Shown piece by piece: positions 8,050 to 53,000 of a stretch of DNA of 64,000 nt. The notes beneath the pieces were generated by a model, which saw nothing but the letters and a program-made list of their open reading frames with translations, was not told the origin of the DNA and ran no database searches. Position 1 is the first letter of the stretch. Each line of letters starts with the position of its first letter. The translations under genes and the position numbers were made by a program. Origin of the DNA: Astropecten irregularis (lineage: Eukaryota; Echinodermata; Asteroidea; Paxillosida; Astropectinidae); NCBI GenBank assembly GCA_963971285.1, contig OZ020248.1:26215764-26279763 (forward strand), read 5' to 3'.

Positions 8050-11000
8050 CTGAAAAATCAATGACGAAGAAATGCTTGGAGTTAGGAGGACCTGACACAT
8101 TTCGATGCTAGCAGGATCTTTTTCAAAGAAGGATCAGGTAGGCAAGGTCAAAGAAACTTAAATAGCTTCACTTGTTTCATGTGATTACTCGCTCATGCAC
8201 AACAAAGAAGAGCATATACTTTACAAAGTACATAAATTTGTTGCAGACACTAAAATATTCATCTCAAAAGGTCAATGCATGCAGATATATTCCTGCAATC
8301 CTTAGATATGACTTAAGATCTGCAAACTTTTGTTAATACCATATCCAAAATGACAAGTTTTCACACTTAAGGCTGCTTCATACTTTCTGTGAATTGTGAT
8401 GTGAAGCAAAAATTACATACAGAATTAAAGGTTCAAATGTCGTAACTGGATTTTATTGTTGTAACTGGATTTTAATGTCGTAACTGGATTTTATTTTGTG
8501 TCATGAAACAATTTCCAGGAGGTGTGCAAAGGCCCTTGGAATAGATGTGAGAAGGCTTTTGGACTAACCTCTCTTTAAGAATGGAATCCAAGACCTTAGT
8601 TTCATGTCTGGTTTAGTATCTCCACTTCCTAAAGATGCACCTGCTTTGTTTCTACCGGTCTCCTGGACTTGATCCGGAGCTGCCTCTCCCTCTCCACTGG
8701 TCCTGACAATCTCTACTTGATGCTGAAGCTCCTCTAAGGCCATCACAAGCTGGTTGATGTGCTCCTCCTGGGAATGATACTGGCCTTCCAGAAACACGTT
8801 CTGCTCCGTTGCTTTGCTCCGCTCCTAGTTGATTGGATTAATTCAATAATCCAAGTTAAGAATCATTACTCTGATTTGACGGGGTCATCACAAAACGTCC
8901 AAATTAACTCAGTAAGAATAGAATTCAGAGTAACCCAAAGTCTGCATGCATACAGACAGTAGGTCCCTGCCAACCAACAAAATATGCTTACATTATAAAG
9001 CAGTAAGCAGCAATTCTTGGCTTACTGTAAGCAAAACTGTGAAATTAAGCCCCTTCATGCAAATATTAACCTCAATCAATCAATCTATCGATCAGTGGCA
9101 GCATATGCCGCGGCAGCATGCCATTGCATCCACCTTCGAGCGGTACTCTTTCGGTCTACTGATAGCCATCCCCAGGCAGCCACGCGACCCATCCCCATCT
9201 CAGCAAAATTAACGATCCATCTGACGCAACCACATGTCATGTGGATGCCCTACTGGGTGAGTCCTACCAGTAAGTTCTCTCATAGAGTGAATTCTCCTGG
9301 CAGGATCGCTCGCAGGGAATCTAGCCACATGACCTGTTATGACGTAATTTAGAGCTTCTTACCTTTTCAGCGTCATCTAGAGCTGCCGTGAGTTGATTGA
9401 TCTCATTGTTGGTGCATTGTAACTCGGCCTCGCGAAATCTCAACAATACCTGTGTAAACAAGAAACAGATGCCGACATCAGAGATGAAATGTTTGTGAAA
9501 TGTTATCATTTGCATACAAATTCTATGGTTCTAGGTCTCCTGATGATGAATAGAGCAGGCTAGTCGAAACTTTGAGGCCTAACAAGAAGTGTGAATGAAA
9601 TATAAGTGTGAAAGTACAAACAAACATCACATGGTGTTTCCGCAAACCGATCCACATACCAATTGTCAATATGCAAAGTCTCAAATCTGGAACTGCTAGC
9701 CTTCATTAGACAATTGATGAAGTTAGCATGTCCTGCAGCCACCTACCGTGATGAATAACCCTTTCCTTTCTAATATATTCGATTTGTTAAATACGACTTG
9801 AAGCTATGCATGGTGGAAGTACTAAAAGAAGGTAGGTTTGCAGTGACACCATGTAATCTCTTCTGTGAGAGTGTGTGGTTCTGAAAAGAACCGGTGGTAT
9901 TATCTCAACATTCCGAACAGTGTTCTATGTTCGTCCTCAGGAGAGTGACTGTCGAGATAAAACCACCGGTTCTTTTCAGAACCACACACTCTCACAGAAG
10001 AGATTGCACGGTGTCACCGCAAACTTACCTTCTTATACAATTAGTTGAATACATGTATGATTAAATGGCATACCTGTAATGGATTCTTCTCATTATCGTT
10101 GCCATCTACTCCCCATTGTCCGTCATCTCCGTTCTTGACTTGTATTTCTTGTTCCTTAAGGGCTGCCATATCTTCTGCCTTCTGACCAATAAGATGCCTG
10201 ACCTGCGTCTGCCATGACTCTAGATTCTGCCTGGTACTTGCTAGACTCTTCTCCAGGCTCTCTAATTGTTTCTTGAGGGACACGTTCTCGGCACAGACTT
10301 GGGTGAATTTGTCCGAGATGATCTTCCAGTCCCGGTCCATTTTGAGGATTACCTCCCTGTTTATCAAAACAACAGTATCTTCAATTACACTCAATAACTC
10401 AAACTCAGATAACTCAAAAGTCCACTTAACTCAAAGTGACGATTTGTTCCCGCCAAAAGAATAGACTTTTGTATACATAAATACTTCTGTGTGTCAAATT
10501 ACCCATGGTCAAAATCCTGCTTAAGTCAAAGTTTTTTCTCCGAACAATGAAAACAAATCGCTGCCGAGTCTGTCCTTTTCAGGTGCTACAGGTATATGAT
10601 TGAAAATGAAGTATATGTACATGTGATTTGGGCTATGTATAAACATGCCACTTCCATTGTTAGTCGATCCCCATACTCTTATGTGCACAATTTGACTTGA
10701 CAATTCAAACCATGCGTTAGTCAAAGTCTGGATAACTCATAGTTTACATTCATTCCCTCGAGGTTTGAGATATCAATGTTTTACTATATTTCAAATCAAT
10801 ACAGCAACATGCAGGGAAAGTATGGCATGCAACTTTGCCTGGAATGTTGGAAAATACTTAATGAAATCTGAAAGATGAATGAAAACTCGTACACGTACTA
10901 ATGTATAACAAGAGACATAAGTGAATGAGATATGTAATTCACTAATAACACTAGAATATTCTACTAATAATAAGCAGAGAATGCTTAAAGTTAATAGGAG

Positions 11001-14000
11001 GGCCTGACGCGTTTTGATCCTAGCAGGATCTTTCTCAAAGGCTGCTCAGAGTTAGGAGGGCCTGACACGTTTCGATCCTAGCAGGATCTTTCTCAAAGGC
11101 TGCTCAGAGTTGGGAGGGCCTGACACGTTTTGATCTTAACAGGATCTTTATCGGAGGCTGCTCAGAGTTAGGAGGGCCTGACTCGTTTTGATCCTAGCAG
11201 GATCTTTCTCAAAGGCTAAATCAGAGAAGTTAGACAGAGACAATTTGCATCAACTCTAAAGAAAACCTTAGAATCTCAAGGCACAAGAAATTTAATAAAT
11301 AATATGAGAACAAGTGATAATGCTTGGTATAAAAATGTAATGAAAATGCAGTGCAAGACAATACTGAGCAAGAGATAGGTACAGTAATACATGTACGATG
11401 AATGTAGACAATATCTATTTATTCATGATCAAAATTTGATTTAATTTGATTTGATTCATTCAAGGTAAGTACAAATGTAGGAGCAAACTGAGTCCATTTG
11501 AGACATCTTTGTTATAGAACGCAGATTAATCCTTGCTTAAAGGGTCTGTGCAATAGGAATATTATGGCTTGAACGTGTGCAAAAGAGCAGCTGTTTAATA
11601 GGGTCTGTGATTTTACCCACTTCCACAACTGTTTTAGGGTTAACAGCAAGTTTTTGGTTTGTATGCTAATTAGAATTTACATATTCATGAGCAAAACTGT
11701 GATGTCATCTAGGTAACTGGGAGCAGTATTAACCCAACTGAATTGTGCACAAAAAGTTGGGGTTGTTTTATAGGTTTTCTGACAGCATTATGTAAATGAG
11801 ATCTCCGTAAAAAGTTCGCTCTGCAGTGAAATGATCTAAAGAATCTAACACTTAAATGTGTGGTATAAAAGGAAGACAAAAGTGAGCATTTCGTGAACAT
11901 CAAAGTATTCCTAAATAACATTAAATGTTATAAATAACAAATTCCAGCTAATTATACAAAGTACACGCATGCATGACAATTGGACAATACACATTACTAT
12001 GGAAACAAGCAGATATCCAAACACAACACAGTGACTGCAAGTTTCACAGATACATCCAAGATTAAAGTGCAACAGTCAAACTTGGCACGGTGTTTTGTTC
12101 TGACGTGACTACTGACAGGAATAACTGACCTGAGAGGACTATGGTGTATGTTGACCTATAGATTGGTCAAACCGTGAAGGGGTTGGGCATCAATCAAAAG
12201 AAAATGCCATTCAAAAAAACAGTCACAGTGTTAGATTAAGGCTGTGTATTAGTCATAGGGTTAATCTCAAGCACTGGGTTGCATCAATGCAAAATAAAGG
12301 CAAATAATTATACACAGACATCTCAATAACTGTACATTTCTGGTATAATTCCGGGAAAAACTTGACTGGGGAAACATGATCGGTATTCTACGTATCACAT
12401 GCATATTTACAAACATGGACACATTTAGGGAATAATCGCCAAAATATCAATTAAAATAAGGGATGTTCTTATCAGGACAGCTACCACAATATTATAATTG
12501 GTTGCACTCTTTCTGATCTCACTGTTCCCCTGTATCTCCGTTGGTTTCTATAAGGATGAAACTGTTCATATATGGATGAATTGGTTCAGCCAAAACAAAC
12601 TGGTCCCCTTCTACTTCACTGGTTTCAATCATGGCCCAATTGCTTGCTTATGGAATAGGCCAGACTGGTCCCCTTCAACTTCACTGGTTCCCAATTGGGC
12701 TCAATGGTTTATTATGAATTAATTGGTCCTCCTTGGTTCCTGACAAGGGGCCGATTTCACAAAATGCTTTGCGATCATCGCTAAAGCCCAACAAAATCCA
12801 TCGCTTAACGGAAAATTGCTATGCAAAGTAGCGATCGATTTTCCGTTTAGCGATGGATTAGGGCTATTGTGATGATCGCAAAGTGAAGGGCTGATAATGC
12901 TATAAATTAATGATTGCCTTGGAAAATCACTCATCCCATTTTTGGCGAACTATATCAAAAGCGGAGGAAAATGTCATAGATAACTGAAACATCATCGTAC
13001 AGACACAATCCTCTATCTTTCAAGACAGCAATTTGTAAGATTAAGATGTTTATCATAAGATGCCACGCCCTATACCACGCCCTATACCACGCCCTGCCAC
13101 ACCCACCTGTGTCTCTTCATGACAACTTCTACATCATTGGTTACATTCTGCTGCATGTCAGACCATTGCTGCTCCATCTCCTGCTTGTGTGCTTTCTGCA
13201 GGGCTGCTATACCTATTCACACCAAATATTCAAATGAGATATGTCAAAGGTCATGATTCCTCTCAAAGATTAATATAGAAGGTTTGCTGTAAAAGCTCTA
13301 TGGGTAAATGGTGGGGTTTTGAAATTTGAAACACGAGGTCTCAAACTTTGCTTCGGCTGCTTTTGGAAGACTCTGGGCACTCTTTGGGAGTACGATGATT
13401 TTGTTTCTAGTACTGTTTTTGGTGACACAGTCTATGTGCATTTACAAAACAGAGGCTCAGGCTCCGTCTCAGGCTCCGGCTCCATTTCATGAATCCATTC
13501 TGAAATAACGGGTATCAAAATAGAGGCTTTTGGATGCGGTTCTTAAGAAGATTCTTTGGTTTGAAAAGGAAAACAGAGATTCAATGACAAACCACAACCT
13601 ATATTTTCAGCATATGGATGTCAGAGCTTGAGCCTGAGCCTAAGCCTTCGTTTTGTAAACGCCCTATGTGAGCACATGGCTGGTCTGTGTTGGTAGCATG
13701 TGAAATCAAACTGTACAATAAATCAATGGATAAAGTATTAGGTATTTCCTCATATAGGTTGTTAACAAGCTGATTCTTCAGAACCTCAGTATAACCTGAC
13801 TTGATGACAGTGTCTACTGATAATCCTATGATTAGGACGAAGATATACTCCGTGGTGTCTAATTATGCTGTGTACAGTGAAACTTCAACATTGATTGAGA
13901 AAAACTGCACAAATTGCCTGGTAATTAGAAAGTCTAACTATCTGAACTGTAATAACATAAGCCCAAGTATCAGGTTAAAGAGAAGACTGTCATAGCTACA

Positions 14001-20000: not shown

Positions 20001-23000
20001 TTCTACCCTAGGCCTATTTGAAAATGACCTTTGCATAGCCAAATAGCAGTGTAATTGGAATGGAAAACTGTGAGCTCACATTCTACATACTACTTGGCTT
20101 TCTTCTTCTAAACCCAAAACAAGTCACTATTTGCACATAGACTTGTTTAAATGTACCGTATAAAACATAAATTCCTTTTACGGTGCCTAAAAAGGCTGAG
20201 AGCAAAACTCTATGAATAGTGTGTATAACGCACAGGGAAACCAACATGAAGAAAGTCATTCACTCTCAATGTTTCTTGCATGTTGCCATTTTTAGAGTTT
20301 ACATTGACCTATGAAAACCATCTTATGACAGGCTACCAGGGGTCGATTTCACCAAGCCCTGCGATCGATCGTAACTCGAGTAATGAAGGATAACACATCG
20401 TAGCGGGCCTATCCCACGTAGGGCATCAAAAGTCCTACGATTGATAGTGAGTTACGAAGAGTTTGGTGAAATCAACCCCAAGAGTCAACCAAAAGAACTG
20501 GAATCAAATAGCCTTCCAATTACTATGTGTGAATCTCAAACGGAATAAAACAAATTTTAAAGCTGTAAAATAAAAAACAGAAAAATAACAGCAAATTGCT
20601 ATTTGAATTCTGTATCCATACATTAGCAAAATCATATTGGTATAATTCTGCAACATTACTACAAGAAGCATACGTCACAGGTTTCAATATCTTGCAACTA
20701 ACACTGCTGAACACATCTTAAACAAAAAACAAGAACACCATTAAAATACATGAATAAATAATAAACAAAAGCACAAATGATTAACATTGCATAAACAGAG
20801 GTTACAACAGCATATATGCACACATAAATACAACAACAAAAAACGCAACATTTTAGATAATACTAAATTTGTTGTGATACCATGATGATTTACAATGAGT
20901 TTTTTTAAAGAACATAATATTGAAGTTGAAAAAAATTGTACTTTTTAACTGAGTAGTGAAGACAGGCAAAATTACAGCAGCAACCCTAACTTGTATACCA
21001 CTTATAACTATAAATCTGACACAGTTGATTACCAGTATCTTGTTTATTTTTTTGCTGGTTATATTAAGGCAAAATGTAATGTAAACGGAACTAGGACAAG
21101 GAAAATTCCATAGATGATTCATGGGAAATATGAAGCGACATGATTTTCTTGAAGAGAAATAAAGCATTTGACATAAATATACTCATACTCAAATTCTCTG
21201 GAAATCAAAAATAAGACACAAATACTGAAATGATTTGAGAATCATTAAGAACATGAAAGTAAAGAAAAGTGGAGATGACAAGATATATCAATATAACACA
21301 GATGGGACTGATTCCCAAATATTCTATCAAACATCGAATTGTAAACAGTTAATGGTATCACAGCAAACTTATTATTATCTACCTATTCCCATGATGGATT
21401 GAGTTATAGACAGAACACTGAACACACAAACACCGATGTTGTTAGTAAACAGACATACATTTTATTATGGGTTAATTCTGAGCATGATCATCAGACAGTC
21501 ATGGAGGCATCCATGACTGGGGGCCATCACCAGTTGCACTCAATGCAGCATGAACCCACCACAATGTAGGTTAATGAGAGTGTGTATGTCAGAACAGGAC
21601 CCAATTTTCATGGAATCTGTTACCGTAAGCAAAAATTCCTCGCTTACAATAGCAAACTTTTTTTTGCTTACGGTAAGCGTACTTCACAGGAGGGTTTTCT
21701 TTTTGGTTACGGTAAGCAAGAACTTTCTACGTAATGCATATGACAGCGCGTTAGCAGAACATATTCACGGTTAGCCTAGAGATTCTTCGCTAACCGAAAC
21801 TCTTGCTTATGGATTCCATGAAATAGATTTCACGTGTAGCAGTGCCCGTAAGCACAAAAATAGACCGTAACGGATTCCATGAAATTGGGTCCTGGGCATG
21901 AAAGCACATAGACATCGGTAAATCAGTAGAGTAGTTCTCCATTTGATTGATTTGATCAAAGGAGGTCACAAACCACTACATATGCATGGATGGTGTGCGG
22001 TGGCCCCCACTAATGGCTGCCCCCACCAAAGCCTTATCAGACTTGTCTACATACCAACACCTTATGCTGTGTTGAAAATAAATAAACAGAAATTATGCAG
22101 GATATATATTTGGGTATGGCCTAGCGCTGACGAGTATAATATTACACGATACATGCCACAAAGACGACATCATGCTACATTCACGTAGTAATTGCTGGAT
22201 CACAAACAGACACGTAAGGGATACTGACTGACAACGCGTTAGGGAAACTGTAACATCAACAATACAGTAACAAGCATGCACTGCAGTGAGTATACTCATA
22301 TACATGCATGCCACAGTGCATTTAAGGCCATGGGGCGGGGCAGGCGGGCGGGGCAGAGGCTTAGCAGAGTGTAAGAGAACATCAGTACGGGCGGGATATC
22401 AAGATATCGGGCTGATCTTGCAGCTGCAGGGAGACTTGAGGCAGCTTGGAGACTGCATCTCAGTTGCAGATACATGGTACAAGCCAACATGCATGCTGAA
22501 GCCAAAAGCAACGGACAAATCAATAATCGGCAGAACATTAAAAAAAAAAACGACAACGAAAAACAAGATTTGAATAATCAGGCATCAGAGGTTTACAACG
22601 GCAGACGGAGAGAGGTTTGGATGCAACCAAGTTCACAGTCCACAAAATACCAAACACGATACACCGGTCTGCATCGATTCTTACCTGACCCAACTCGTCA
22701 GGACTAGCTTCGGCATTTTGAAGACTTTCATCAACCTGTTGCCGTCTCTTAGTCGCCTCAAGCAAGTGGAGCCGTTTCAGCTGGTCCAGATGCTCCTGGA
22801 ACTCCCGTCGCAGACCCAAAACCATCTTCTCGTGAGCCATCTTCAGCGTTCGTATCTCAGTCTGATACTGTTTATCCATTTTCTCCAGGGAGTCTGTGAT
22901 GGCATCTATCTCACCGCTGTGCTCCTTCTCAACAGCTGCCAGTTCCTCTTGAGTGTTGGCCAGCGTCTCCTTAGTGTGATCTAGCTCTGCGAGTATCTCA

Positions 23001-26000
23001 CTGAGACTCGTCACCACTAAGTCATCGACAATGTCGCTCAAGTCTTCGTCAGGGGTTACTGTAATCTCTGGCTTGCTTGCTTGTCTTGCTTCAACGTCCT
23101 CTAACTTTGCTTCTAATTCCTCAACTTTTGAAAGTGCCTCTCTGTACTTCTCTTGTAAAGAGTTCAGTTCTTGTTCGTATTTTAACTCTTCCTCGTGGAT
23201 CAGGTTCTCATAACGACGCCGAACCTCGGCTAAAATCCGGGCATGATCCGCTGTGACATGTTCAATTGGACTGTAGCGACCCTTCTGCATGATTGCCTCC
23301 CAATTATCCTGCAACTGGCCCTCAAGATGTGCCTGCTCGGCACGAGCTATTGCAGAATCGGCCAAGTGGAATGCCAAGTTTTCATATTCAGCACTAACTG
23401 GCTCAGGAATACGGGAAGGCACATGTTCGGCACTAACTTGCTCAGGGGTACGGGAAACCACATGCTCTGCTTCATTGAGATCACAGCTGACTGCAGCTGG
23501 GTCATGATTAAACAAATCCGCATCACTCATGGTAGCACCATCACAGCTGCTTAAGTGTGGTATTTCCTCAATGACATGCCTGACAAGACCTCCTACCACT
23601 ACCTTTCTGATCATCAGACTACCCAGAAGTCCAACATAATCACCCAGCACGGCGTGGAGGTCCTCATCATCACCGCATGGCAAGCCTTTCCCCTTCCTGA
23701 CCTCACTGACTGCATTTTCATAACTCTCCAGGAGCTGCTGTTTGATCCGAACGATCTCTTCTTCCAGAAGGCATTCTATGTGAGAATATCGCTTGTCCCC
23801 GACAGAGCTAAGAGCTTTAAGAACTATCTGACATGTACTCCGCTCTACAGAGAGCTTCTTCAGGAAATCAGAGACCCTGACTTGGAGCAAGTGGAAGACT
23901 TCGACGAGTAACATCTTGTCCTCAACCAAATTCACTGATGTCCCCCTAGCTTCTCGCAATGCTATCTGCTTTGCGTAAGACACTAAGTCTGGACCCACTG
24001 AATCTAGAATGCCTGTTATGTCTACATCCTTCACGGCTACAGGAAAGATATCATCGAAGCTGCCCAACACATCGTCATCGTCGATGCACAGCCCTGCTCT
24101 TCGATTTCTCTCCTTGTCAGATTTCACACGACTGACATTTTCATGGGCCAGAATTTCAGCCAGTTTTGCGATAACCTTTTTCAAATGTTTCTCAAACATT
24201 TCACTGAATCCTTTTTGCTTCTGCTGGAGTAAAATACCGGCTTCTTCGAGATTCAACTCATAATTGTGCAAATGTGCCAACACATCGCTGCCCACAGAGG
24301 ACGAGGTTGAATTTGTGCCCTTTTTAACTTTTGAGAGATACTCTACTTGCCCTGCCTTTATGATTGTGTTAGACAAGGAGTTACCAAAATTATCTAATTT
24401 GGGAGTCCAGACTGAGGACCGTTCGATGGATTTGGAATGAGACAACTCACTGAAGGGTGGGTTTGTTCTTCTTTGCCTCTTCAAGGGTGATCTAGATTTA
24501 GAATGCCTATCAATAAAAGGCCTGGTAAATTCAGTTTTAGAGCCTTCCGCGCTGTCTGTCGGAGGAGCTTGAGTGTAGCAAGCCTCAGCTTGCAAGAGAA
24601 ATCTTGGCGATAAGAGATCATTGATTGTTTGGGAAGTATGGTGTAAGGAAGGTTGATTCAAATCATGTTGCTCCGAACTTAAAGCAGTTTCAAGTTCCGT
24701 CATCGCAGCCGTGAGAGAATCACTTTCTTCAAGACACATCTGTATCTTGGCAAGCTTCTGCCTGTCCGTTTGATGGAGGACAAAACTGGACTCTCCAAGG
24801 AGGATAACCTCAGCAGACAACCTGTTAGCGAATCGCTCTAACGTCTCAATGACGCTAGGATTCCGATGACGCGACAGCTTCATAGAACCAGACTCATTAC
24901 TCTCATAACTTGATGCTGTTGTAGAAGCAAAGCTACTACTAGCTGAATGGCCCTCGGCACCGCGCCCCCTAATCAACAATGAATGCATAGAATCCCTACT
25001 CTGCTTTTCGATATGGGTCTGTTGGGACATGGCAGTCTGTTTACACTGATCTACTTTGTGGCATGCATCGGTGAGCAGGGATTTGAGGCATGAAAGCATG
25101 TTGTTGTGGCTAGTAGTTGTTGGGTTAGTGGCTACCTCCACCCGCTGCTGCTGATTAGGCAGCCCATCCCAGCTATCCCCTTCCAAGTCTATCTCTAAAT
25201 CAACCCATTCTAAACCAGATCTAACGTCCCCCAAGAGTTGTCCACAGTCAGTCAAGGAAGCCCGCATAGCGCAGGCAAAGGTGCGACTGTTTGACTGTAC
25301 CTGTTGAAGTTCCTTGGTCAATGCTTCCACTTCACGTTCCATGACTTTTAATCTCTCCTTCAGTCGACTCTCTGAGACACTCTTCCCTTGGTAGGCTTTA
25401 CGGTTCTCCAACTCTCGTGTAGTCACATCAACAAGCTTTCTTGTCACCTCTTTCAGTTTAAGCTCCGTCTCACTCAGTTTTGTCTCCAGGAAGCGGGCTC
25501 TGAAAGTCTGCTTTCCCTTATCTGGTGAAGCAGGTGCTTGCTCAGAGTCCTCCGAGTGATCAGGTCCAGAGGTGGAGAGACTATCGCAGGGTGCGCTAGC
25601 AGCTGATGAGCCACGTGACAAGGACAAGGACATCTGTGGTTGATGAGGATGTTCAGCATCAAAACTTGGCACGCTACTAGTCGAAGACAGTTGACCTTGA
25701 GCTTGGACCTGCTGCTCTACTGAGACTATTTTTCCCAGCAGGCTGCTAGTGTCCTGATCCTGATTCTGCATAGTGTTTTCTACATCCCCCAGTTTGGACT
25801 CCAGTTCCTTGAGCTTATTTTCCATTTTCCGGGTTTGAGTTAGTTGCGATCCCATCCCACCAGCTGCCCCTTTTCCCCTATTCCTGTGATCTACCCCACT
25901 CAGATCTCTCACCTTACGCTCCGTTGCTGCCAACTTGCTTGTCAGGTCCTGGATTCTGTACCCCATCTGGCCAATCTGCTCCTCGTGCTGTTGCTCATAC

Positions 26001-29000
26001 CGCTTCATTTCTTCCCGCTTCTTGATGAACTGGAGGTCCAGCTCATCAAAGTTGTCCTGTGCAGCATGGAGTTCTCCACGGAGACGCTTGACATCCTTCT
26101 CCATCCGGTCACATTTGGCCCTCAGTAGCTCCTCCTCCTTCTGCATGTCTAGTTGATTGGCTGCTGCATCATTTTCAGCTCGAGTGAGCGATTCAACTGT
26201 TGCCTTCAACTTCGTATCCAGCGCAGCAACTTTCTCCTGAAGACTCTTAATAGTGTCATTCGCCGTGTCCAACTCACTCTGTCGGTTATGCATATCAAGA
26301 GCATGCTGTTCTTCAAGGGAAGCTATCTGCCGTTTTAGGCGACGTTGCTCTGTTTGCAGTGCCTCCCGTTGGGTACTGGCCTCACTCTCAGTCCTTTGGG
26401 ACACCAGCTTCAACTCGGCTTCCATGCTTTCAACTTTGATTCTCAAAGTTGCTGTTTCCGATAGACTTTCTTGCAACTGCTGTTCCAGTTTGGAGTTTTG
26501 ACTGCCTCTGGTTTCCACCTCAGAGTTGATTTTCTCGATCCTCCTGTCCTTTTCAGATAATTGGTTATTCAGACTATCCACCGCTGCAGCAAGCTGCTTC
26601 CGAACTAAGTTGACGGCTTCTCGTTCCTTCTTAGCTTTCTTCAAGTCAGCACGGAGACTCACTATCTGTGAATTCTTTTGTTCAACTTCATTATCTGAGC
26701 TGCCAGCTTCTTGAGTTGAGTGAGCGATTTGATCTTCCAGCTGTTTTCTAAGAGCTTGTTCTCTCTGGAAGGCTTTCTCAAGTAATGCCTTTTGTTCCTT
26801 CTCAGCAGAACTTTCTTTTCTCAGTTTCTCAATCTCTCGTCCAGCTAGATTCAATTCTGATTCTAGCTTGACTGCATTGTCGTCACTACTAGTGGAAGCC
26901 ATGTCACCCTGACCTTCAAGGAACTGAGTGGCTGACTGTGCTACCAAGTCATCATATTTCCTCTGAAACTCAGATTTTGAAGTGATCTCAGTTTTTAACT
27001 GAGACTTAAGTTCTTGGATGGAAGATTCTAGTTCCTCTATTCTGGCATTACTATCAGTCCGTCCAGCTTGAAGTGTAACAGCTTCAATCTTGTCAACCTC
27101 TTCGTTTCTCTCTGTGAGTCTCTTCTGAAGGGTTTGACTTTCCTCGACGGCTTCCTGAAGTCTGTGTTTGAGAGCAGCATTTTCCTCCTGATACTGACTC
27201 TGCAAGCGATTGAAATGCTTCTGTGCTTTCTCTTCCCTCTCCATAGCATCAGTCTCACTTTTCTCTAATCGCATCCGTGCTTCCTCAAGCATGGTTGACA
27301 GCCTCTCAATGTCCACATCAACGGCTTCGCTTCCCCTCTCCCTAAGGGTCATCCAGGTATCCGTCAATTCTGTCTCCAGACTCTCACTCCGCTCTCGTTC
27401 TGCTTTCAGATTGGATCGGATGTCAGAGATTTCACTCTCACTGGCTGTAAGATCTCTAACCAGGTCCTCAAAGCGGCCTTTTAGAGATACAAACTCCTGG
27501 TCACGTCCTTCGGAGTCTGTCTTCAGGGTGGTCAGTTGGTTGGCTAGCTGCTGGTTCTGCTGTTGAAGGTGCTGGGATGCATTCTTGGATTGTCTCAGTT
27601 CGGCCTGAAGTTTCTGATTGGTCAATTCTGACTGGCGGCTTCGGTTGGCCATCTGCTCAATCTGTATTCAAAAAATCAAAAAGGAAAACATTTGATTTAT
27701 AAATGTGTGTCACTTCCAACAATAAATGGATCTTTACAAAAAAGCTGAATTTGCCATCATTGGCTAATTATTACTGCTCCAGACACTCATCACAGAAAAG
27801 CAATATAAAAAAAAACAGGGCTTCTATCAAATTTTACAAATAAGACATTTTTTTAATAGAATTACCTTTAACAATAATTAATACTGTGTGCCAGAGATTT
27901 TCATTTTCAATATGAAAATCCTGTCAGTTAAAAAAAATCATGACTTCCATTTTCAGATTTGAACAGATCTTCTCTCATTTGATGTGCTGAATTCTTTCTG
28001 AGTCCGAGAATACAACAGAGGATAATTGGAATTGGGGTCGATTTCACCAAACTCATCGTAACTTACTTTCAATCTTAGGACTTATGATGCACTATGTTGC
28101 ATTGCAGCCCTACGTAAGATATGACGGGTTATCCCTTGTAACTCAAGTTACAATTTTTTGGAGGGCTTCGTGAAATCGACCCCTTGGGCCGATTTCATAA
28201 AACTTACGACGCGTCGCAGAGTTAAGACGCATCCTTTCTCTATGGACTCACCACATAGATGCGACGCGTCGCAGCTAGGACGCGTCGCAAATCGAGTTGC
28301 GACGCGTCGCGGAGCTTAATGAAATTGGCCCCAGGAGACATAATTTTCTGACGTACCTGTGTCATATACCCTGTCTGTTCAATTGGCCCCAGGAGACATA
28401 ATTTTCTGACGTACCTGTGTCATATACCCTGTCTGTTCAATTGGCCCCAGGAGACATAATTTTCTGACGTACCTGTGTCATATAGCCTGTCTGTTCAATT
28501 GGCCCCAGGAGACATAATTTTCTGACGTACCTGTGTCATATACCCTGTCTGTTCAATTGGCCTCAGGAGACATAATTTTCTGACGTACCTGTGTCATATA
28601 CCCTGTCTGTTCATTCTCCAGGTCTTGGAAACTCTCCTTATGGTCTCTCTGTTCTGAGTTGAGCTGAGCTTTAAGGTTGGCATTCTCCTGCTGTAAGCGG
28701 CCACAATCCTGCTGCTTGGTCTCCAACTGAGACTTCAACGTATCCACCTTTCAAAAAATAAACGGAAATATCCTGTCAAGGCCTTGTGAGAACTCTCAGC
28801 TCCAAAGCATGGAAGTGATTCAAAAAAGCTATCAACTTGGAAGATTTGGATAAGATTTTCAGTTGACCTGATGTACAAAGAGGGACACTAATACAGGTCA
28901 GCTACTTCTCAGTTGTTGTTGTTGTTCACAGGCTTCAATTCAGACCAAATTGTTTGCATTATTCAATCTCTTCAACGAATAACTAAATAATAACAGATTA

Positions 29001-32000
29001 ATTACGGCGCCCACTGAGACAAGGGATTAAATTCACCCTGCTGACCCCAGCTAGCTCAGTGGCCAAGTGGTATGTCATCTGCACTAGTAAGCAGGAGGTC
29101 ATGGGTTCAAATCCCACCTGAACCAGCACATGATTTTTCATGTGCGCTCAAAAGTCACTTACTGAGGTGATTATCTACGTCATTGAAGAGCAATAAATTG
29201 TTTGTATTATTCTATCTCCTCGATGAATAAATCAATTATATAACAGATTCAAAGAACAAGATAAAAAAATATTGTTTAATGGGTGAGATGATGCCGAATG
29301 AAACTCAGCATACCAAGTGACATCTTCACATCAGTGGAGGACTTACCTCTAGTTCCAGAAGAGACATGACGGTAGTGTCTACAGTAGATGAACCCTTTTT
29401 ACTCTCAGAAACACTGGCTGTAACTCGAGGAGAATGCTGCTGCTCAGCGTTCGTGGATGAAACAACTTCCTCAGTTTGAGAATTACTCCTAGATTTCCGG
29501 GAGGTGGTAGCGTGCTTAGAGTCCGTGTTAGAAGTCCTTTTAGAGAGGGCGGCCGTGACAGCTGCCGCACTGTCCTCCTGGGATCTCTTTTCTGATCGAG
29601 ATCCTTTCCTGCTTCTCCTCTCCTTGGACTTTGCAGATTTCGAAGAGTCCGAGCTCGACCCGTCTTTTGAGGATGAGGACTGCTTTTGTCTTGTCTCTGC
29701 GTTCACAACAGTCTCTTTGGTTACAGAATTCCGCCTGGCTCCCGAGGACGTCGCCTCTTTAGGGATGGAACCTCTCCGGGTTCTCGTATCAGAGTAGGAG
29801 GAGGACTTGGACAATGAGCTCCCTCGTCCTTCTGATTTGCCTGAGGGAACGGGTGGAAGAGTCTCAACGGGAGATGTTTTGGTGGGTACACTAGATCTCT
29901 GTTCGAGAAGCTGCGGAGATTCAAGAGAGGTATGGGTCACCTTCCCGTCAGTCTGTGTGACACCCCTGACGATGGCCGCGGCATCCAAATTATTGGAGTT
30001 CCTCCGCATGGGCTGGAGAGGACTGGGTCTCTCGTCCTTTGGCCGGATGTCTGACGTGCTCTTCGATACTGGTAAGGAGTTGGGTTTGGATGCGGCTAGT
30101 AGAGGCTTGTTCTCCTTGGTAGGGGAATCTACCGGCTTCTTAGCACTGTCTTCCTGTGCTGTCTTGATGGCTTTGTTGATAGCTCCTACCCAGTTGTTAC
30201 GGATACCAGATGTCATAGCAGCGAGAATAATCAGTCCAGTATCCAGCTAAAAGGGAAAAATCACCCAAGAGTCAATAAATACAACTTGACAATTCTAAAG
30301 ATATGGCATCTGCACTGAGGTTGTGGGTTCCAATCCCACCTGAGCCAGCATGTGATTTTTTCACCGGCTCTCACAAGCAATAAGTATACAGTGCTCATCC
30401 AAGTCGGTGAAGGGCAAGCCTAGTTTGCATACAATTCTAAGGATTCTCAACATGCTTTAAATACTTGACGGTGTATAATACCAATACATAGGACCAAGCC
30501 AACGGAGCCATACTGAATGACTATGTGATTGCATTGTACACTATTTATCAATCACAATGTCAAACCACTATCATGGCTGGTCATATCCTGGCATTGTGAC
30601 AAAGCAACATGGCCAACAGGAACTGAGTATTGTGGATTTCTACTGTGTCACTGTGCATGTATTTCCTGTGCCTGACAATATCCAGGTCATGTTGGATTAG
30701 AACTGAAATTCAACAGATTTCAAAAACAAAAATAATCATCTAGTCATGTCATTTTTCATTTGAATAAATTCCAAAGAATTCACAAACATTTCAAAAGAGG
30801 AATAAAAACATTTTTAGTTACTTTAAACTTATTTTGAGGTGAAAATGGTTATTAAAGGTACTATCATACTTTGGTAGCATACCGAAATAGAAATCTCCAC
30901 AGATTTACCTATTAATTACAGGGTATAAAGATGGTACAAACATACCGTAACAACTTTTCAGTCTGAAATGCTGTATTTATCATGAAAAGAGTAAAACCAA
31001 AGACCCAAAACAATTTTGATCTTTGGAAGATCAAAAATAATGGTGGAAAGATTTTTTTTTTAATATTGTTGCCGTTTTTCACTGTTTTCTCTAAAAGTGG
31101 ACACCATATGGGACAGGGAACTTCACAGATGACTGTTACTGTATCTTTCTATATATTTCTGCCCATGAATTTGCATTTTTGTTGACAAAAACCAAAATAT
31201 GATATTACCTTTAAATGAAAACTAATCTTTTCTACATCCATGTAAACAAATCTGTGAGAACTATCAGAAGTATGTGTATAATAAGACCTGGGGCCAATTT
31301 CACAGAGCTGCTTAGCACAAAAAATCGCTAAGCATGACATTTCTGCCTTAATAAAAACAGGATTAACAACCAAATTTCCATGTGTTGTGTATCACTTGCA
31401 ATTGTTCTTTGGCTGTTGTTCACTGACCATGAATATCAAATCAAATTTTCAATGGTGGTTTGTTTAATTGGGCAAGCCAATGTTGTGCTAAGCAATTTTT
31501 TGGTGCTAAGCATCTCTATGAAATTGGCCCCTGAATATAGTTGATATATATTACCTCTATCTGGAAGCCATAGTTTCTGCTGACAGGTGTTTCAGCAGCT
31601 TTGTTGCATTTGGCCAGTTCAATTATTCCATCCAAGTTATTGGGCTGAGGATTAAACATACAAATGTATTTATAAGTATTCCTTGTTAAATACTCACTTG
31701 ATTCAGATTCCTGTATTCAAACTAAAGATCTTCAAGTGACTCAATAAAGTGGATACATGCATGAGATACTGCATGAATAAATCTACTGTAAAACAGAAGT
31801 CAACCAAAAGAATTACCTGAAATATATGAAATGTTTGGAGTTGGGAGCCTGTCATTTCGATCCTAGCACAATCTTTTTTTTACGCTTTGAGAACTTTAGA
31901 TCCTGGTTGGATCAAAACGATAGGCCCCCTTAACTCCAAACAATCTTTTTTTAGTTCATTAGCTCAAGTTGTGGCTTAGGCCTGAGCCTCCGTTTCATAA

Positions 32001-50000: not shown

Positions 50001-53000
50001 TGTAAGATGAGATCACGATAAATGGTTTACTTCAACCATCCAAGTAACAAATCAATATGGTCAATTCATCCGGACCGTTTTAATTGTCAGAATTTGATTT
50101 CAAGAGTATTTTAAATATTTGCTTATTGTTTATGTACGTGACAATTTCAACTGCAGATCTATGACAACTAAGTGTACATGATATACATACATGTATGCAA
50201 GTGAAGTCTGGGGCCCAATTTAATAGAGCTGCTTAGAACAAAAAAATGCTTAGCACAAAAATGGCTTGCCCAATAAAACAAACCACCATTGAAAATTCCA
50301 TTTGATATTCGTGGTCATATAATACACAACACATGGACATTTGGTTGTTAATCCTGTTTTTATAAGCAAACAAAAATGTCATGCTTAGCAATATTTTGTG
50401 CTAAGCAGCTCTATGAAATTGGCCCCTAGTTAATTTTGAACTGAGTTTTGTATAGCACAGCATCCACATGTGGCATTGGGTTTAAGCTTCAGATGGCACG
50501 CATCAATGCATCAAACTATTAATATCATATTAATTACACCTAACTCAGCGCCAGCAGGGTGAGACTGGTAATTCAATTGCATTTTGATGCTAGGTCCTAC
50601 AGTCTGACATTTACATATCACAGTTCAAGCAGACTGGTACAGTAATTTGCTACAAATTATCTCTTTTCTACAATTTCAAAGTGTGTGCTTTTTGTTTTCA
50701 GTAATAAGATGTGCTTACTAGGTCTGCTTTCAGTCTGGGGCCAATTGCATAGAGCTGCTTAATCACAAAATTTGCTTAAGCATGAAAGGTCTTCCTTGAT
50801 CAATCAGGATTACCAACCAAATTTTCATGTGAGGTTTACTGCTTTTGTCTATTCGGCAATTGTTTGCTGAGCTTACACTGTAATAGTGGTCGTTCGTTAA
50901 AGTGAACAATGTTCAGCACTTCTATGATACATTGTACATAAAGATTGGGAGCCAAGGATGATGTTCGGTATAGCCAAATGTTTGGTATAGCGGTGTTTGT
51001 TATAGTGGCATTCCACTGTAAATTATTGTGATAAAGAGTACTGTACATATAATTAAAACTGATGGGCAGGTGGTTTTGTGTGAATTCTGCATTTGAGGTC
51101 AAAGGCTAATCATCCTTACTGGCAGCTGGGGTGCTGAATTATGAAGGATGCGGCTACAACGTGATCCAGTTGACAGCGGCGCCCTTGCCTGCCAGCACAC
51201 TTCAACCCATATATGATCACAGAGCACAGCCTGAGATCGAAAGTGTTTGATTTTTGTGGAGGGAGGAAAAGCAGAGAACTCAGAGAAAAACCCTCGTAGC
51301 ATAGAAGAGAACCAACGCACAACTCTACTCACATATGACCCAAGCCAGGATCGAACCCGGGCCACATTGGTGAGAGGCGAGTGTATGCCCCTGCGATGCT
51401 ATATGTACATCATGTACTCTCATACAGACAGCCAACCATGTACAGCATCTGTTACTATATCATCCCACTAACCAGGGGGTGCTTCCTCACAGGTTGCACT
51501 ATCATATGGGCAATTCCAGCGTAACGGACATGACAATTACACAGTTTTTGCCTTATTCAGAGGATCATAAAGTAGGATTGGCAGTTTGCAAACAATTTTA
51601 ATTAGGCTTATCAGACACATTTAACTATCAGTGACATATGTAGTAAATTTTATGTAATTTCATTGAACAGTTGTAGAGAAAAAGCACTTCTTGTGACCGT
51701 AACGGACATGACAACTTAGTGTCATGTCCGTTACGGTCACAAGCAGTGCATTTTCTCTACAACTGTTCAATGAAATTACATAAAATTTACTACATATGTC
51801 ACTGATAGTTAAATGTGTCTGATAAGCCTAATTAAAATTGTTTGCAAACTGCCAATCCTACTTTATGATCCTCTGAATAAGGCAAAAACTGTGTAATTGT
51901 CATGTCCGTTACGCTGGAATTGCCCATATGGGAAGGAGGACGTCAATCATATGATCAACTTAATTAAGAGAGGATACTGCAGTGTTATATCAATGGCACT
52001 CACATTGACATGTGCATCATGGTGAATGATCCCAGATAGACCATGTGATTATATCTGTCAGAATGATTAGTCTGCTTTGTAATTACCTATGACTGCAGTG
52101 TCAGACAATTTACTGCAGTCCAATTAAGGTTTGTCAAAATGATGTTAAGAGTAATGATGGAGGATTATCCCATCCAGCTCGCAATCTATTCCAGACCATG
52201 AGCTCTGGCAACTGATTCCAAGCAATGAAATCAGATTCCAAATGCAGCATGATAATGAAAACTGCACTGAATAGCCGATAGTATCTTCAAGATGCTCGGA
52301 GTTAGGAGGGCCTGACGCGTTTCGATCCTAGCAGGATCTTTCTTAAAGGCTGCTCAGAGTTAGGAGGGCCTGACGCGTTTCGATCCTAGCAGGATCTTTC
52401 TCAAAGGCTGCTCAGAGTTAGCAGAGCCTGACGTGCTTCGATCCTAGCAGGATATTTCTCAAAGGCTGCTCAGAGTTAGGAGGGCCTGACGCGTTTCGAT
52501 CCTAGCAGGATCTTTCTCAAAGGCTGCTCAGAGTTAGGAGGGCCTTACGCGTTTCGATCCTAGCAGGATATTTCTCAAAGGCTGCTCAGAGTTAGGAGGG
52601 CCTGACGTTTTAATCAAAAGAGGGCGCCATTCTAAACAGTGTGCTCAAATGACTGGATAAATAAGTCAAGGACTAACCTCTCGTGCAGCATGTTGTGCAG
52701 CAAGCTTCAGCTGTCGTTGTTTGAGTCGTTCATTCTCCTTGTTGATTTCAGGATATTCTGCTAATGTTTCCAACCAGCTGCAGGCAGAGAGAGAGGTACA
52801 CGGAAGGAATAGAGAATGACATGAGGATGGACAATCATGAACTACTGATCATGAGTAGATACATCCTGGTGCCAGTTTACATGTGGATTGATTGATGGCA
52901 TTGTCACATTGATGTAACTGTCTTCAAATGTCACACATATCTGTCAATCTCCTCAGATGTCACCACATACATGTATATGCCACTGTCTTCATGTCACACA

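Follow-up and report, generated by a model that had tools for sequence, protein, structure and literature searches.

Why does the end of a coding exon, together with its splice donor, stand five times in a row beside a small transposon, and what would such a row do to the transcript? The question arises in the window, a stretch of 64,000 nucleotides of the Astropecten irregularis genome that is part of contig C11 of the 475.7-Mb assembly and is represented here by one assembly and one allele. Our favoured answer, which we hold to be probable, is that the array is a minisatellite confined to this locus, which straddles an exon-intron border and arose from an ordinary small tandem duplication, and that the exon-side donor is favoured while the others serve mainly as decoys.

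At positions 28323-28612 of the window, five units of 58 bp lie head to tail, with starts at 28323, 28381, 28439, 28497 and 28555. By direct reading, only 2 of the 290 positions are off the array consensus, namely 28485 in unit 3 and 28563 in unit 5, and TRF delimits the array at 28323-28613 (period 58, 5.0 copies, 98% matches, score 568). A sequence-only reading of this DNA had proposed a fivefold 58-bp tandem amplification, which both TRF and the unit-by-unit reading bear out. Read on the minus strand, which is that of the gene, the consensus unit has three parts: 24 exon bases (GAACAGACAGGGTATATGACACAG), then 25 bases of the intron (GTACGTCAGAAAATTATGTCTCCTG), which begin with the donor GTACGT and end with the MITE-target CTG, and finally 9 bases of the MITE (GGGCCAATT); at the unit junction, MITE and exon overlap by one base. 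The claim that the units carry the last 24 exon bases thus holds for each of them, whereas the approximately 10 element bases assigned to each unit have to be split: nine belong to the MITE end, and the tenth, a C, is part of the CAG target site. The last 9 bp of MITE 1 are present in every unit, with one base changed in unit 5. In that same unit, of which the intron part lies 3' of donor 1, a C>T change at 28563 (plus strand) has removed a GGGG run, which units 1-4 retain. A 466-bp query comprising array and exon gave a single match, and no second locus or allele was found in the 475.7-Mb assembly. Two more arrays with a 58-bp period are present in the window (10995-11217 and 52293-52607); they have a common rotated unit that is unlike the unit of the exon-border array, and their equal period looks coincidental.

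The array adjoins an exon of 159 nt or 53 codons (28589-28747, minus strand; exon 10 of the sequence-only reading), which has an open frame and an acceptor GAAAG|GTGG, ends in ...GGGTATATGACACAG and fits the next exon in phase. Its last 24 nt form the exon-side part of unit 5. The next exon, which is very long and coiled-coil-like (22685-27661, minus strand; 4977 nt; acceptor GAATACAG|ATTGAG), is open for 1,659 codons from 27661 to an inferred donor CAG|GTAAGA at 22684. Between both exons, the minus strand reads CAG|GTACGT five times, once in each unit: donor 1, on the exon side, at 28583-28591 (first intron base 28588, in plus coordinates as for the following), donor 2 at 28525-28533 (28530), donor 3 at 28467-28475 (28472), donor 4 at 28409-28417 (28414) and donor 5, on the intron side and adjoining the MITE, at 28351-28359 (28356). 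The donor consensus is CAG|GTAAGT, with which all five agree at eight of nine positions, and their contexts are identical over 21 nt, in line with the row of five near-identical donors noted earlier. Only donor 1 keeps the frame: it joins the giant exon in phase 0 and the frame stays open. When spliced to the same exon, donors 2-5 all add VRQKIMSPEAN followed by a TGA, 34-36 nt past donor 1. The predicted exon lengths with donors 2, 3, 4 and 5 are 217, 275, 333 and 391 nt, and the TGA is located 22, 80, 138 and 196 nt ahead of the exon junction, respectively. Translation of the spliced frames agrees exactly with the earlier claim that only the outermost donor is in frame and the others reach a TGA. 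Frame and acceptor phase together point to donor 1 as the authentic donor.

The host gene itself is probably cytoskeletal. Upstream on the same strand lies a partial PH domain (Pfam E = 1.1e-4, 23.1 bits, below the cut-off of 25.1), and the exon that encodes it also matches PH-domain chains of the PDB, from E = 1.1e-4. The giant exon yields coiled-coil or lever-arm matches, all of them below the cut-off. The combination of a PH domain and a long coiled-coil-like exon fits the tentative label MPRIP-like by its architecture. In the intron upstream lies a tRNA-like sequence with an incomplete anticodon call (29052-29127), which is probably where a tRNA-derived SINE has its head.

On its intron side the array is bordered by a foldback MITE of 146 bp (MITE 1, GGGCCGATTTCAT...ATGAAATTGGCCC), which starts at 28186, as had been read before, and ends at 28331 rather than 28332. 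Its family was sampled by a genome search in which 40 of 1,677 candidates were scored, the window's own copy included; the other 39 were taken with their flanks and aligned. As best matches to the query these 39 copies are a biased sample, with 95-98% identity to the window copy over the match, inverted ends and a shared family sequence. They mostly end in GGGCCGATTTCAT and ATGAAATCGGCCC (n=39), and the majority have the terminus AATCGGCCC, from which the window locus differs by a T at one base. At this position the 39 copies have C in 36 cases, T in two and A in one. The T, which gives AATTGG, is present in all five units; it is the minority base in the family, yet common among MITE ends genome-wide. 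The preferred target is CWG, often in the form C-CWG-G (C before in 22 of the 39, G after in 33), and in 25 of the 39 copies of this best-matching sample the two 3-bp flanks are identical. MITE 1 is flanked by CTT on the left and by the target-site trinucleotide CAG on the right (28332-28334); these do not match, hence an intact target duplication is absent at the window locus. The left flank may have been altered by the history of a second, related MITE that abuts MITE 1 (28034-28183, ends GGGGTCGATTTCAC / GTGAAATCGACCCC, delimited by inverted repeat I1). Related MITEs that directly adjoin each other, apparently with a common target trinucleotide, are seen in the window (28034-28331) and in 3 of the 39 copies: in two of these (L035 and L044) the adjacency is similar but on the other side than in the window, and in the third (L048) a partial second copy stands directly beside a full one. 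Given the C-CWG-G preference, the right end of many MITEs reads CAGG, and that of some CAGGT, which makes them look like an exon-end donor (L010-L048).

The order of events can be read from this anatomy. The earlier proposal that the element preceded the amplification is supported, because the 9-bp family terminus, bar one base, occurs in every unit and no array remnant was seen to the left of MITE 1. The anatomy shows that the MITE inserted at a CWG site in the intron, 23-25 bases from its start. Subsequently, a single duplication linked a position 9 bp within the MITE to one lying 24 bp within the exon, the junction of which is visible with its 1-bp overlap, and unequal exchange or slippage may then have raised the number of copies to five. 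The array had also been described as recent or homogenised, which fits the 2 differences in 290 positions; compared with the 4 of 147 positions at which the MITE copy departs from the family majority, this divergence is not significantly lower (Fisher p = 0.10), and a younger age of the array than of the MITE is only suggested.

Head-to-tail units that span an authentic donor, with a donor consensus in each, make the array, by its sequence, a splice-donor minisatellite, a kind already known in human genes (ABCA7, IFI6). It is set apart by units that extend into a transposon and include a copied exon end; no report of a transposon-bridged donor array was found among the papers listed from the open-access literature searched, which is not proof of absence. 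The closest relative is the VNTR in intron 18 of human ABCA7, described here after excerpts of one account (PMC5954066). As in our array, its tandem units start at the donor of an exon (exon 18): the first donor is canonical, and retention of one unit occurs via the donor in the next unit. Two frame-shifting isoforms account for 14 ± 6% and 2 ± 1%, of which the order of listing assigns the 2% to unit retention, and both are described as subject to NMD; a retained unit puts the mRNA out of frame and makes it a substrate for decay, as is predicted for donors 2-5. A longer VNTR goes with more exon 19 skipping and a lower expression, while unit retention is unchanged. The ABCA7 units differ in being 25 bp long, in numbering about 12 to 427 copies, a number shown to vary between individuals, and in beginning at GT; a copied exon end and a transposon terminus, both features of our array, are unmentioned in the excerpted account (PMC5954066). 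The minisatellite of IFI6 (6-16, G1P3) likewise supplies several donors, and two downstream repeat units are used as such (PMC4526556, citing Turri et al., 1995). According to that citing passage its products are protein isoforms, whereas those of donors 2-5 would carry a stop. The paired donors of DOK7 intron 4 resemble the array in that they compete and one leads to a truncated product, but, as far as the excerpt goes, they are two dissimilar donors 11 nt apart that are regulated by SRSF1, without an array (PMC5585400).

In the pre-mRNA the spliceosome would meet five equal donors 58 nt apart. By analogy with ABCA7, the exon-side donor would be favoured, as it alone ends a real exon of 159 nt with whatever enhancers are present there. 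Use of donors 2-5 would add 58-232 nt to the exon and introduce their common TGA, and the resulting mRNA should be degraded. As a general rule, a stop ahead of a further downstream exon junction leads to mRNA decay, and it is expected for these mRNAs because a further junction would lie downstream of the giant exon. The array would act mainly as a row of decoys at the cost of some productive splicing, again following the ABCA7 analogy. We expect donor 1 to be mainly used, with leakage to donors 2-5. This leakage may exceed that of ABCA7 because the exon end has been copied too: with 24 exon bases in each unit, donors 2-5 may compete better than their ABCA7 counterparts. The loss of the GGGG run in unit 5 could, judged from the sequence, weaken donor 1.

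Other outcomes of splicing have to be weighed against this expectation. In older donor-competition experiments the intron-proximal donor was favoured, and if this rule applied to the five identical donors, the one nearest to the 3' splice site (donor 5) would win and the allele would be largely non-productive. In line herewith, the excerpted DOK7 study reports that SRSF1 promotes the intron-proximal of two donors, which would correspond here to a stop-bearing one (PMC5585400). However, use of donor 5 would produce a 391-nt exon that carries the stop, and in ABCA7 it is the exon-side donor that is canonical (PMC5954066, in excerpt). In addition, the predicted RNA fold, in which the MITE makes its own hairpin, leaves donor 5 least accessible (mean unpaired 0.42 vs. 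0.63-0.75 for the other four), which would mildly disfavour it, and we regard dominance of donor 5 as doubtful. The opposite extreme, an inert array of which donor 1 alone is ever used without measurable effect, has a slim chance: only donor 1 has a true exon upstream, but all five donors are identical, with the same 24 bases before and 34 bases after them save two single bases, and a next-unit donor is used in ABCA7 (PMC5954066, in excerpt). We further think it unlikely that the transposon-bridged minisatellite functions as a copy-number dial, in which more units result in fewer transcripts, via stop-bearing forms or skipping of the giant in-frame exon, and tune the output between individuals. 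The excerpted ABCA7 data point both ways, since VNTR length tracks lower expression and more next-exon skipping while unit retention does not change with length (PMC5954066). That each CAG|GTACGT doubles as an acceptor, so that units leave as 58-nt introns or by recursive splicing, is the least credible of all readings. AG|GT is in register in every unit, and a duplicated AG|GT segment is shared with the AGGT-duplication model of intron gain (PMC3443670, in excerpt; see also PMC4974935). Yet our array spans an existing exon-intron border and not the interior of an exon, and it lacks a good acceptor context: pyrimidines make up 32-36% before each array AG, whereas the two acceptors inferred to be real have 73% and 68%.

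Regarding the origin of the array, an assembly artefact, with one copy or another number at the true locus, is very improbable. The array is short (~290 bp), contains two unit-specific variants and occurs at a single place in the assembly, and short arrays are usually collapsed in assemblies, not expanded. A driving role of the foldback MITE in the amplification, for instance via replication stalling at its hairpin, is also quite unlikely. The single-stranded DNA of MITE 1 does have a very stable fold (z = -7.3), a partial second MITE directly adjoins the full copy in L048, and a MITE end is also part of some other arrays, one of them 14 x 81 bp at C24:5884003. TRF, however, detected no tandem array touching either end in the 39 sister copies. 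The terminus pattern AATYGGCCCCWG occurs 22,400 times in the genome and recurs directly at a start-to-start distance of 27-88 bp in 31 cases (0.14%); the reversed-pattern control, with 0 matches, speaks for a role of the MITE. For ordinary 12-mers the rate is 58/51,979 (0.11%) in the flanks and 273/62,431 (0.44%) in the remainder of the window, a rough comparison given that two wobble bases are permitted in the terminus pattern but none in the 12-mer control, and that the two backgrounds differ fourfold, the terminus rate being just above one and below the other. These backgrounds exclude repeats inside the MITE and the array itself, with which they are inflated to 463/63,331 (window) and 230/63,641 (39 loci). 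MITE-driven amplification as a general process is thus not supported, the terminus recurring about as often as ordinary 12-mers, and the MITE is probably not the cause of the amplification. The 31 matches represent 24 places, the window included. When TRF was run on wider DNA at 11 of the other 23 places, five of the 11 (C24, C17, C23, C18:18769500 and C1:6412761) had an array with a MITE end in its unit. All 31 small loci were also put to a cruder test, in which adjacent units had an identity of 90% or more in 10 loci, representing four places; this test missed C17 and C1. A short direct repeat (CCTGGAGAAT in the exon, CCTGGGGCCAAT from the MITE insertion) was also considered as a seed for slippage and rejected, since among 20,000 random pairs at the same distance of 58 bp, 2,706 scored no worse.

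With the minisatellite as our preferred reading, the value of the array lies in its testability, not in a new mechanism. The choice between equal donors has often been tested with constructed minigenes. Here, donors 2-5 are identical over the 58 nt that precede and the 34 nt that follow them, apart from two single bases, and differ mainly in position, and the readout of donor choice is simple, with one donor in frame and the other four not. The suggestion of a natural competition assay therefore appears sound as a design, as far as the nearly identical contexts of donors 2-5 indicate.

Some minor observations were made elsewhere in the assembly. The 14 x 81-bp array at C24:5884003 (L080, 2503-3638) is the largest seen; it starts at another MITE terminus and its unit contains a donor-like CAG|GTTAGT. 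That the breakpoint lies at a similar depth in this array and in the window is a biased likeness, the terminus pattern requiring at least 9 MITE bases. A mitochondrial COX1 on contig C168 was translated with six genetic codes (2, 4, 5, 9, 13 and 14); tables 9 and 14, in which AAA encodes Asn, yield STNHKDIGTLY and DRNVNTTFFDP, the motifs usual in animals, and table 9, the code of echinoderms and flatworms, is the likelier of the two, in keeping with an echinoderm. At C25:9951047-9952018, a partial COX1 with seven in-frame TGA codons on a large contig is probably a nuclear copy of mitochondrial DNA. An uninterrupted bacterial-type COX1 at C131:32162-33484 (L091, L093), on a contig of 102,890 bp, suggests a bacterial associate or contaminant.
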